32,587 nt of DNA from an uncultured Alphaproteobacteria bacterium (lineage in GTDB: Bacteria; Pseudomonadota; Alphaproteobacteria; Sneathiellales; Sneathiellaceae): contig CAJXWA010000017.1 of the NCBI GenBank assembly GCA_913062525.1, positions 1 to 32,587 on the forward strand, written 5' to 3'. Shown one piece after another: positions 1,325 through 4,583 of this stretch (positions within the stretch are counted from its first letter, which is position 1; each line of letters begins with the position of its first letter). A model generated the notes under the pieces. That model was not told the origin of the DNA, searched no databases, and saw nothing but the letters and a program-made list of their open reading frames with translations. The translations under genes and the position numbers were made by a program.

Positions 1325-2308
1325 ATGAAGCGCTTTTTGATCTTCTTTCTGGCTCTGTTTATCCTCGTCAGTGCAGTCGTAGGCAGTATCGCCGCTTATG
1401 GATGGCATCTATTCACAAATACAGGCCCCCTCCAAGAAGAGGTAACACTGATCTTTGAAAAGGGATCAGGACTTCGCAGTATTTCAAAAAAATTGGAAAC
1501 CGCCGGTGTCATTCATAATGAATTTTCCTTTATGTTTGGTGTTCGAGCCCGGTCTCAAGCGAAAAACCTCAAAGCTGGTGAGTTCGAAATAGCACCGGGT
1601 TTAAGCGGCGAACAAGTTCTGGCACTCTTGGTGTCAGGAAAGACTGCTGTATATTATCTAACCATCCCTGAAGGCCTGCAGAGCCGAGAGATTGCGGACC
1701 TAATCAGCCATAATCCTGTTTTATCTGGTGATTTAACAGTCCCGTTGGTTGAAGGCTCATTGCTCCCTGAAACATATCAATTGAGACGCGGAGACAGCAA
1801 AAATTCGGTGGCTGAACGAATGATGAGTCTTCAAAAAAAAGCCATAGATGATCTTTGGAGAAACCGAACACCAGATCCGCTGATTACCTCAAAAGCCGAT
1901 TTGCTCATTCTGGCATCCATTGTTGAAAAAGAGACTGGTCTGGCGACAGAACGCGCCCATGTAGCCGGTGTTTTCTTAAATCGATTGAAACGGAAAATGA
2001 GATTGCAGTCGGACCCAACGGTGGCTTATGGGGTGACTAATGGTGCAGCTGATCTCGGCCGCCCTATTTCAAAAAAAGACCTTGCAGCCAAGAATAAATA
2101 TAACACTTACACCTTGAAAGGATTGCCGGTAGGTCCAATTTGCAATCCGGGATTGGATAGTTTGAAAGCTGTTTTGAGCCCAATGAAAACCAAGGATTTG
2201 TACTTTGTCGCTGATGGCACAGGTGGGCATGTTTTTGCACCTACTTTGAAAGAGCATAATCGCAATGTTCGGAATTGGCGGAAACTCAAGAAGAGTAAAT
2301 CAAACTAA
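1325..2308 (+). CDS. mltG: Endolytic murein transglycosylase MltG
   Basis: Inner-membrane lytic transglycosylase that cuts nascent glycan strands and leaves 1,6-anhydro-MurNAc ends; in E. coli it acts as a terminase for wall polymerisation. The 327-residue protein has one N-terminal membrane anchor (about residues 3-25), a LysM-like part (about 36-110) and the YceG catalytic domain. Visible motifs are ASIVEKETG, with the predicted catalytic Glu201, then VAGVFLNRL, LQSDPTVAYG and, near the C-terminus, GLPVGPICNPG. The ATG at 1325 has an excellent Shine-Dalgarno (acggagg, 1314-1320). It is 19 bases from fabF, the usual alphaproteobacterial order. Nothing is missing. Confidence 0.96.
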   Translation: MKRFLIFFLALFILVSAVVGSIAAYGWHLFTNTGPLQEEVTLIFEKGSGLRSISKKLETAGVIHNEFSFMFGVRARSQAKNLKAGEFEIAPGLSGEQVLALLVSGKTAVYYLTIPEGLQSREIADLISHNPVLSGDLTVPLVEGSLLPETYQLRRGDSKNSVAERMMSLQKKAIDDLWRNRTPDPLITSKADLLILASIVEKETGLATERAHVAGVFLNRLKRKMRLQSDPTVAYGVTNGAADLGRPISKKDLAAKNKYNTYTLKGLPVGPICNPGLDSLKAVLSPMKTKDLYFVADGTGGHVFAPTLKEHNRNVRNWRKLKKSKSN

Positions 2309-2374: not shown

Positions 2375-2381
2375 GAGGAGG
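2375..2381 (+). promoter_or_regulatory. Ribosome binding site that decides the start of the gene at 2390
   Basis: The bases gaggagg match the anti-Shine-Dalgarno closely and lie eight bases before the in-frame GTG at 2390. The earlier in-frame TTG at 2321 is preceded only by ttttcaccaaga. This favours the 406-residue product over a 429-residue one. Confidence 0.7.
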
Positions 2382-2389
2382 GCAAGTCG

Positions 2390-3610
2390 GTGACGAGTGA
2401 TTCAATTCAGACTTTGTTAAAACAAAGACGAGAGTTACGAGACTGTTTACAAGAACTTCGTAATGAAGTTGCAGGTATGCATCAAAATACTGAGAAAATG
2501 ATTGGGAACGCGCTTGGTGAAAACCAAACTGTCCCAGTTGTAGAAGGTAAAAAAGCAACAGCTGCTCCGCAAGATGCCTTGCCAGACCCCGCCACGGCCT
2601 TGAAACTAATTCAGAAACTCACCCAGGCCCAGAAAAGCGTTCAAGGTGATGATACATTAGTGGCTGAAGTAAAAGCACCGCAGAAAACAGTGCCGACAGA
2701 GCCCGTTGTTGATGCGCGCAAACTTGGGTTTGAGAATGCAAAGTTGACTGAATCGGAGACTTCTGCTGCGACCGCGTCTGTTACGGAAAATCTTATTGGA
2801 CCAGCAAAGCTTGATGCTAAGCCATCGCCAATAGATGCAGACCTTCATGTAAAATCAAGAACACCTGAAAATCTCAAGAGCCCTGTTGTTGAGAGGAAGG
2901 AGGATGAAGAGGCACCTGAAATTGATAACCTTCTAAATCACGCGATTTTAATCGCGGATTTTTTTCTACATCATCCGTCTTCTGCTGGAAATGAACAGCT
3001 CAACAAATTGGACGCGGCCATCTCTCAAATTAAAAGGCTGCCCGCTACGGATAAAAGTGATGCCGCGATTACTGCGCTTAAGAATGCCTACCGCAATGTT
3101 GTGTCGGCGACTTACGCTAAATCTGAAGTAACGGGTAAAAGTATTTCAGACAGCTCATCGGCAATTACTCTCCTCTGGGTATTGCCAATGATCATTTCAA
3201 GTCTTGTTCTGGTCATCCTCCCTTGTCTTTTACTTATGCGATCTCTTGTACAGAGAATGTTCGTTGATGAATTCTCTTCGGAGTTAATGTTGTCCATGGG
3301 CGGAGCTGTATCATTTGTTTGGGGAGCTACCGGGGCACTCGCTTTTCTAGCGTTTGTAATCGCAAGAGAGGCTAAAAATAAACGTTATATTAGAGGGGCA
3401 AATAGAGGCGTAGCTATTCGAGCGATCGTTGGAGCATTGCTAGGTCTGGGTGTTTTTCTGATTTTCTCTCTGACGGGTTTATTCGGCGGTCTTGAGCGTG
3501 ATGTTGCCGTGGGTCTACTTGCATTTTTATTGGGTGCTACGAGTTCTGGTGCAGTGGGATACTTTGAAAAAAGAGCGGAGGGTGCCAGAACAGCTAAGAT
3601 TACGCCGTAA
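2390..3610 (+). CDS. Uncharacterised protein: N-terminal coil, charged linker, four C-terminal membrane segments
   Basis: I do not recognise this family. Counting from GTG at 2390 the protein is 406 residues. Residues about 5-40 are a charged helix likely to form a coiled coil (LLKQRRELRDCLQELRNEV). Residues about 45-180 are Pro/Ala/Lys/Glu-rich and look disordered. A second helical part follows (about 178-245), then four hydrophobic segments at about 258-284, 303-325, 341-365 and 371-393, the last two glycine-rich (GALLGLGVFLIF, AFLLGATSSGAVGYF). There is no signal peptide, so the long N-terminal half is probably cytoplasmic. The frame also opens at TTG 2321, but that start has no ribosome site, while GTG 2390 has gaggagg eight bases upstream. 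It lies between mltG and yicC, which are usually closer neighbours. A link to envelope or wall work is inference from position only. Confidence 0.8.
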   Translation: MTSDSIQTLLKQRRELRDCLQELRNEVAGMHQNTEKMIGNALGENQTVPVVEGKKATAAPQDALPDPATALKLIQKLTQAQKSVQGDDTLVAEVKAPQKTVPTEPVVDARKLGFENAKLTESETSAATASVTENLIGPAKLDAKPSPIDADLHVKSRTPENLKSPVVERKEDEEAPEIDNLLNHAILIADFFLHHPSSAGNEQLNKLDAAISQIKRLPATDKSDAAITALKNAYRNVVSATYAKSEVTGKSISDSSSAITLLWVLPMIISSLVLVILPCLLLMRSLVQRMFVDEFSSELMLSMGGAVSFVWGATGALAFLAFVIAREAKNKRYIRGANRGVAIRAIVGALLGLGVFLIFSLTGLFGGLERDVAVGLLAFLLGATSSGAVGYFEKRAEGARTAKITP

Positions 3611-3686: not shown

Positions 3687-4583
3687 ATGGCACTACAAAG
3701 CATGACGGGGTTTGCCCGGATAAACGGAACGCATGAAGAATATTCGTGGCTTTGGGAAGTGAAAAGTGTCAATGGCCGGGGGCTGGAAATTCGATGCCGG
3801 ATCCCCTACGGTTTTGATAAAGTTGAAGAAATTGCCCGGAAAAATTTAAAAAGTAAAATGCAGCGGGGAACTGTTAATCTGCACTTACAACTAAATCAGC
3901 CTTCAGGAACATCAGCCTATCAAATTAACCAGACGTTTTTGGATGAACTTATATCGATAGCCAAAGACAAATCAGAGAAAAATAATCTCGAAGCGGCCCG
4001 AATAGATGGTTTGATGGAGATTAAGGGCGTCATTGAACAGGCAGATAAATCTGCAATTGATGATAAAACGCAAGAAGCACTAGAGCAGGCGCTTAGTGTC
4101 TCTTTGAATGAGCTTTTTGATAATTTGATCAATACACGATTAGGGGAAGGTGCGCAGCTGCTTCCTGTTTTAAACAACCAGTTGAACGAGATTGAAGAAT
4201 TGAGCAAAAAGGCTCTCAATACGGCTGCATTACGCCCTGAGAATGTCCGGGCGCGCATGAAAACTCACTTAGATATGATATTAGGGGGCGGTGGATCAAT
4301 CGATGCAAACCGCCTTGAACAAGAACTGGCTTTACTTGCAACAAAGGCCGATATTTCAGAAGAGCTCGACAGATTGACCAGTCATGTGTTGACTGCGAGG
4401 GATGTTCTTGCCAGTGATAAGTCTGAAGGTATTGGGCGGCGGTTGGATTTTATTTGCCAAGAGTTTAACCGCGAAGCCAACACTTTGTGCTCAAAATCCA
4501 ATGATAAAGAATTAACCCAAGTCGGCCTTGATTTGAAAGTGGTCATCGACCGCCTTCGGGAACAAGTCCAAAATATTGAATAA
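3687..4583 (+). CDS. yicC: YicC family endoribonuclease/stress protein
   Basis: Member of the YicC/YloC family; the E. coli protein has been reported as an endoribonuclease acting on small RNA. The 298-residue length is normal. The N-terminal domain opens with MTGFARINGTHEEYSWLWEV and VNGRGLEIRCRIPYGFD, typical of the family. The C-terminal DUF1732 part carries RLEQELALLATKADISEELD, then GRRLDFICQEFNREANTLCS and DLKVVIDRLREQVQNIE at the end. The ATG at 3687 follows acgaagcgagag. It is nine bases from gmk, a classical pairing (yicC-gmk) in proteobacteria, so cotranscription is likely. Substrates cannot be read from the sequence. Confidence 0.94.
   Translation: MALQSMTGFARINGTHEEYSWLWEVKSVNGRGLEIRCRIPYGFDKVEEIARKNLKSKMQRGTVNLHLQLNQPSGTSAYQINQTFLDELISIAKDKSEKNNLEAARIDGLMEIKGVIEQADKSAIDDKTQEALEQALSVSLNELFDNLINTRLGEGAQLLPVLNNQLNEIEELSKKALNTAALRPENVRARMKTHLDMILGGGGSIDANRLEQELALLATKADISEELDRLTSHVLTARDVLASDKSEGIGRRLDFICQEFNREANTLCSKSNDKELTQVGLDLKVVIDRLREQVQNIE

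Follow-up and report, generated by a model that had tools for sequence, protein, structure and literature searches.

Tethered division proteins of the ZipA type consist of a membrane anchor, a disordered linker and a terminal element that binds a partner, and in ZipA itself one N-terminal membrane helix is joined to a folded C-terminal domain. One study reports that DivIVA, a cytoplasmic coiled coil, binds MltG and affects its localisation in Streptococcus suis (PMC10269899), and another that MltG associates with synthases (PMC8135044).

The protein described here, X, is encoded beside mltG in a window of 32,587 nucleotides (the whole stretch of DNA analysed) from an uncultured alphaproteobacterium, whose genus was identified as Sneathiella from named relatives (Sneathiella sp. 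HT1-7 and S. sedimenti). X and the ZipA-type proteins have in common an anchor, a disordered linker and a terminal element, but the layout of X is reversed, with four helices and a coil. The comparison with DivIVA is a works-like analogy only: in both cases a cytoplasmic coiled coil would come to lie at the membrane, close to MltG, and an interaction between X and MltG is a candidate. DivIVA, unlike X, is not known to have membrane helices. What is new here is the link, drawn from profile comparisons, between the core of X and an unnamed superfamily.

Gene X and its place between mltG and yicC

A sequence-only reading of the window had placed a 406-residue protein between mltG and yicC, and its frame, start and gene order were borne out (Table 1). 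A mechanical ORF caller gave a longer X frame of 429 aa from a TTG at 2321. GTG 2390 was preferred because GAGGAGGG lies just upstream of it, because the alignments of most relatives begin at about residue 22–23 of the longer frame, and because 17 of the 18 other X frames have a start codon within three codons on the upstream side of the matching point (the sole listed start of L003 lying at −3), the exception not being one of the frames listed as complete. When the window was scanned, promoter-like sites were at the level of chance (5 seen, 5.4 expected) and terminator-like sites numbered 7 against 3.6 expected; the terminator scan gave no site in the mltG–X interval on the plus strand, nor in the X–yicC interval.

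When relatives were searched with the single protein, X was found in 23 of 60, namely 22 of the 24 Sneathiella genomes (the window's included) and G024, which belongs to a different genus within the family and was the sole carrier outside Sneathiella among these 60. The X profile matched 23 of 25 genomes of the order. X was missed in G009 and G012, genomes of 65 and 70% completeness; the G009 contig stops five bases past a partial match to mltG, with no yicC found in that genome, and the search of G012 gave neither of the two flanking genes. Across the class, the profile matched 7 of 385 genomes, which were five Sneathiella and the superfamily relatives G088 and G361. Far from being absent from close relatives, X was kept in all 18 good genomes of the order, and its frame and place are therefore beyond chance. 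These results confirm that X is a real, conserved bacterial membrane-protein gene.

The order mltG–X–yicC, which lies on one strand in the window, was present in 19 of the 19 Sneathiella genomes that carry the three genes on one contig (contig ends interrupt it in G006, G016 and G023), and the order in G024 is mltG–X–dehydrogenase–yicC. Among genus members, the median identity to the window protein was 30% for X versus 55% for MltG and YicC. The frame was disrupted in 2 of the 22 X-bearing genus members, G005 and G008, both listed as 100% complete. In G005 (L026 1498–2834), X lies in two frames of 274 and 171 aa; in G008 (L005 1504–2838), the frame stops past the second membrane segment and related sequence resumes in another frame. 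These disruptions may be real losses or sequencing errors.

The mltG–yicC interval was surveyed at the 30 best mltG loci of Alphaproteobacteria. yicC was located in 16 of them, the window included, and was not within the 1.5 kb examined at the remaining 14. At the 15 non-Sneathiella loci with yicC, the gap measured 38–217 bases in 7 and 822–1005 bases in 8. The filler was identified in four of the eight large gaps as a short-chain dehydrogenase gene on the opposite strand, and simple ORF picking gave no clear filler in the other four. Judged from these loci, mltG–(gap)–yicC–gmk is an old and stable order in the class, and X occupies a gap that is elsewhere empty or otherwise filled. As G024 carries both X and the dehydrogenase, its arrangement suggests that X entered the gap first and that the dehydrogenase was lost later in Sneathiella.

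Table 1. Features of the X locus and of related loci (window positions unless a locus is named; aa, amino acids)
Feature	Position	Strand	Remarks
mltG (YceG-like, PF02618)	1325..2308	+	81 bases upstream of X; Pfam 271.5 bits
Shine-Dalgarno-like GAGGAGGG	2375..2382	+	7 bases 5ʹ of the GTG; read in the sequence
Gene X	2390..3610	+	406 aa; GTG start 2390, TAA stop 3608–3610
N-terminal coil, residues 1–36	2390..2497	+	Conserved amphipathic helix, four heptads: I6, L9, R13, L16, L20, L23, V27, M30
Variable acidic linker, residues 37–174	2498..2911	+	From the 18-member alignment
Three-helix domain, residues ~178–244	2921..3121	+	'LLxxAxxLxxYxxxHP ... LxxAYRxV ... Y'; common to the wider superfamily
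Four predicted membrane helices, residues ~256–400	3155..3589	+	256–290, 295–330, 340–364, 368–400; limits from a low-confidence model
yicC (PF03755, PF08340)	3687..4583	+	76 bases downstream of X; Pfam
Short-chain dehydrogenase between mltG and yicC	Loci L129, L130, L136, L140, L023	opposite	Other alphaproteobacteria; G024 has the dehydrogenase and X
C52-form member with cNMP-binding/EAL neighbour	L112 7484–10194 (G000:C52); also L114, L115		Neighbour missing in G003 (L113)

Coil, linker and membrane part of X

The anatomy was read from 18 X proteins of the genus, with the disrupted G005 and G008, the contig-end copies of G006 and G023, and G024 left out. Mean pairwise identity was 60% in the coil, 18–23% in the linker, 34–48% over residues ~173–365, 35% over residues 366–392 and 28% in the last 14 residues. 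The coil was thus the most conserved part of X, as conserved as the flanking enzymes. In one heptad register, I, L, V, M, F or C stood at 126 of 162 a/d places (nine counted per protein: residues 6, 9, 13, 16, 20, 23, 27, 30 and 34), compared to 76 of 162 in the best other register, upholding the coil of the sequence-only reading. R13, which stands at an a place, was invariant, as were Q7, L9, L10, Q12, L16, L20 and L23, and residue 34 was never hydrophobic. Continuous heptads with hydrophobic a/d places, as expected of a parallel dimeric coiled coil, were found in the coil. When the 25 genomes of the order were searched with a 40-residue coil profile, the only strong matches were X, in 22 Sneathiella genomes, and the next-best matches, from E 3.9e-4, lay in frames of ~1160 residues. 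Outside the genus, the best match to this profile had an E value of 5.8e-4 (class sample of 190 genomes). No convincing coil match was obtained with it in G024, where the best value (0.104) lay elsewhere in the genome.

The linker had been described as long and charged, and it measured 90–210 residues with a negative net charge in 18 of 18 members (−1 to −21; −4 in the window protein). Between the linker and the membrane part lies the three-helix domain (residues ~178–244), which was absent from the earlier description.

The four C-terminal membrane segments first proposed held up as about four. A hydropathy scan (19-residue window, cut 1.3) counted exactly four in 11 members, five in 5 and three in 2; the window protein scored five, its long first segment being split. 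Two AlphaFold models, each built from four sequences only, both had three soluble helices followed by four long C-terminal helices, with mean pLDDT of 54.4 and 54.2 and a pTM of 0.31, and only the soluble helices reached pLDDT 57–82. The motifs of the membrane part were W-G-x-x-G-A in helix 2, R-x-x-x-G-x-x-x-G at helix 3 and A-F-x-x-G in helix 4. As the loop between membrane segments 2 and 3 and the tail are rich in K/R and the other loops are not, both the N- and C-termini are probably cytoplasmic.

The core of X and an unnamed superfamily

No significant match for X was obtained in Pfam, NCBIfam, PADLOC or PHROGs, nor a significant sequence match in the PDB, and the open-licence literature, judged by titles and abstract openings, yielded nothing on X. 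The best PADLOC value for X (E 0.0067) fell on residues 43–98, within the linker, and four other families each matched 1 of 19 family members weakly; an identity in anti-phage defence was rejected, there being no significant PADLOC model match. DUF4153, TgpA_N (on the paralogue L038) and PD-T4-6 (on L085, E 0.0012) were rejected as hydrophobic or low-complexity matches. A match to a characterised family, which could have overturned the first impression that no family was recognisable, did not occur, and that impression stands for named families (Pfam, NCBIfam, PADLOC and PDB); it does not stand for the C-terminal part, which has relatives, including two encoded by the same genome.

By profile comparison, residues ~175–406 of X (three helices and four membrane helices) are a member of an unnamed proteobacterial superfamily defined here. 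The compared profiles share no members. When the X profile A1 (without G005, G008, G006 and G023 but with G024) was aligned by hhalign with A7, the compact form, the probability was 99.1% over 226–233 columns with a raw score of 134. With A4, the long form, it was 96.6% over ~100 columns covering membrane helices 2–4 (95.6% in a repeat run; raw score 70.8), and with A8, the form with a C-terminal tail, 95.7% over 215 columns (raw score 68.5). A8 comprised 4 sequences after L072 had been dropped for a wrong frame, and L074 and L084 were left out of the superfamily alignments because a wrong frame had been picked (that of L074 being the neighbouring bactofilin). Reversed-profile controls gave 1.9%, 0.8% and 0.4% for A7, A4 and A8, respectively. 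Block-shuffled controls, in which 20-column blocks leave truly related stretches whole, gave 94.4%, 82.1% and 8.8%, with raw scores of at most 60.7, 49.7 and 30.1. As these controls reached up to 94.4%, the superfamily claim rests on scores and alignment length, not on probability alone. The signature positions, tested as (W/Y)G..GA in helix 2, G...G at helix 3 and AF..G in helix 4, were present: in the 11-sequence alignment A2, G315, G348, G352 and G382 were invariant and W311, G312 and F379 nearly so. For a common fold, where the models stood at pLDDT 54, one fold search gave a best PDB match of E 0.84.

The X profile matched a 276-aa protein of the window's own genome (C59), a 296-aa protein of G088 and, weakly, a 395-aa protein of G361. 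The core profile had matches in 17 of the 385 genomes searched in the class, which fell in 12 of 276 genera, and in 3 of 398 across the phylum, and it revealed a third member in the window's own genome, the ~405-aa C52 protein, whose form was in turn found by profile in 14 of 289 class genomes and in 2 of 78 genomes of the class of G446. The distribution of the superfamily is scattered and not universal, with further examples in G116, G308, G575 and Vibrio replicons labelled as megaplasmids. X and its relatives share the core, whereas the conserved coil and long tether belong to X alone and the relatives carry other inserts or tails. Since proteins that stand alone, with neither coil nor linker, align with the core over 233 columns, coil and tether would have been added to a module that is older than they are.

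No scanned member of the superfamily scored above the cut-off of any family in Pfam, NCBIfam, PADLOC or PHROGs. The phage search gave no match for L090 and the plasmid search none for L037; among plasmids only three Vibrio replicons matched, for L038 and L088, and of 10 pattern matches for superfamily relatives in viral contigs none was confirmed. On these searches, whose queries were L090, L037, L038, L088 and other relatives of X, a mobile or defence origin was rejected.

To describe the genes beside superfamily members, 14 stretches were fetched and the ORFs were read in 13 (four plus nine), those of L121 (G361) being seen only in the smaller locus L037; nine neighbour genes were checked against Pfam and the rest named by eye. 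Inspection of the stretches by eye revealed no wall-synthesis gene, mltG included. The third Sneathiella form (C52) sits among coaD, queA and tgt-like genes, as named by eye, and in 3 of 4 Sneathiella stretches it adjoins a cNMP-binding/EAL protein (Pfam-checked in L112). Pfam placed an M24 peptidase gene near the C59-form member. In L074 (731–1812, G253:C259), a bactofilin gene (PF04519, 71 bits) lies directly 3ʹ of the superfamily member on the same strand.

Candidate roles of X

The anatomy, the conservation pattern, the superfamily relation and the fixed place in the genus are computed, not inferred. From this anatomy, our tentative preference is that X is most likely a membrane-tethered adaptor. 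X would be an inner-membrane protein with an N-terminal coil, a disordered acidic tether and a membrane module. The coil of four heptads would probably dimerise, and the charge distribution of X would put its long N-terminal part, like the basic TM2–TM3 loop, in the cytoplasm. The membrane module, made of the three-helix domain and the four membrane helices, would fix the place of the protein, the tether would supply reach, and the conserved coil face would pair with itself and/or hold one cytoplasmic partner near the membrane. As the coil keeps 60% identity while the whole protein drifts (median 30%), the constraint on it resembles that on a binding face. An adaptor also agrees with a linker that varies in length yet keeps its net negative charge, with the single heptad register (126 against 76 of 162 places) and with the presence of X in every good genome of the order. 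Against it, so short a coil may do no more than oligomerise the protein, the models are poor and the membrane part may hold a channel or an enzyme, and G024 keeps the place without a convincing coil match, so that the coil would not be needed for all members. The disrupted copies in G005 and G008, unless they reflect sequencing errors, speak against X being essential.

An envelope role had first been suggested from the adjacency to mltG. In its specific form, X would be a dedicated wall factor that uses its coil or its membrane part to recruit MltG and peptidoglycan synthases or to position them, as DivIVA does with MltG. mltG and X do lie 81 bases apart on one strand, in all 19 Sneathiella genomes with both flanks on the contig and also in G024, and the DivIVA–MltG study offers a precedent, with MltG itself reported to associate with synthases. 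However, the surrounding gene order is old and stable in the class, and the linkage is therefore expected by descent; mltG was present in 92 of 96 genomes of the class sample, among which X occurred only in Sneathiella; and the superfamily members in the stretches read were not seen beside mltG or wall-synthesis genes, one further member having a cytoskeletal neighbour (bactofilin). An envelope role thus gained no support beyond the adjacency: gene position makes a role in the wall or with MltG possible, descent explains the order equally well, and we regard a dedicated wall factor as unlikely. A more general version is more doubtful still, namely that the module is a membrane platform not described before, to which different cytoplasmic parts were joined in different lineages, the Sneathiella coil serving as a scaffold that would bring wall machinery with MltG in it, or else a cytoskeletal polymer, to its place at the membrane, as an alphaproteobacterial counterpart of DivIVA–MltG coupling. 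The bactofilin gene after the L074 member is a faint sign in its direction.

The membrane part could instead carry the function, as an oligomeric channel, sensor or transporter whose coil merely oligomerises the four-helix module. The features conserved in the superfamily, small residues in the membrane helices together with a charged R preceding helix 3, are compatible with this, as is the second-messenger gene (cNMP-binding/EAL) beside one paralogue. It is nevertheless improbable, as no conserved acidic or polar residue was seen inside the membrane helices across the family alignments, neither structure nor sequence matched any channel, and most superfamily members have no coil. A dispensable role, with X a membrane protein peculiar to its lineage and under weak constraint, would fit the fast divergence of X and the two disrupted frames, but a coil conserved like the flanking enzymes and the retention in all good genomes make this quite unlikely. 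Far less credible is that X has diverged from within an already catalogued family, be it DUF4153, DUF1129 or the TgpA N-terminal domain: X scored 15.8 bits (E 0.0081) for DUF4153 (PF13687) and L038 scored 22.0 bits for TgpA_N, but both lie far under the cut-offs, which are 27 and 30 bits, a DUF4153 match was seen in 1 of 19 family members, and such weak scores are usual for hydrophobic helices.

X at present is a well-kept, uncharacterised membrane protein that brings no surprise of mechanism. It turns from an orphan gene into a testable case, in which a superfamily without a catalogue model for its scanned members has a tethered-coil form in one genus. A partner of the coil, if found, would tell how the module is used and whether the linkage to mltG matters.

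Two further arrangements were observed beside superfamily members. In L116 (10571–12333, G000:C59), the compact member and a 311-aa protein without a Pfam match are arranged tail to tail, and in L125 (765–2925, G088:C28), a 427-aa protein of unassigned kind is encoded after the G088 member on the same strand.
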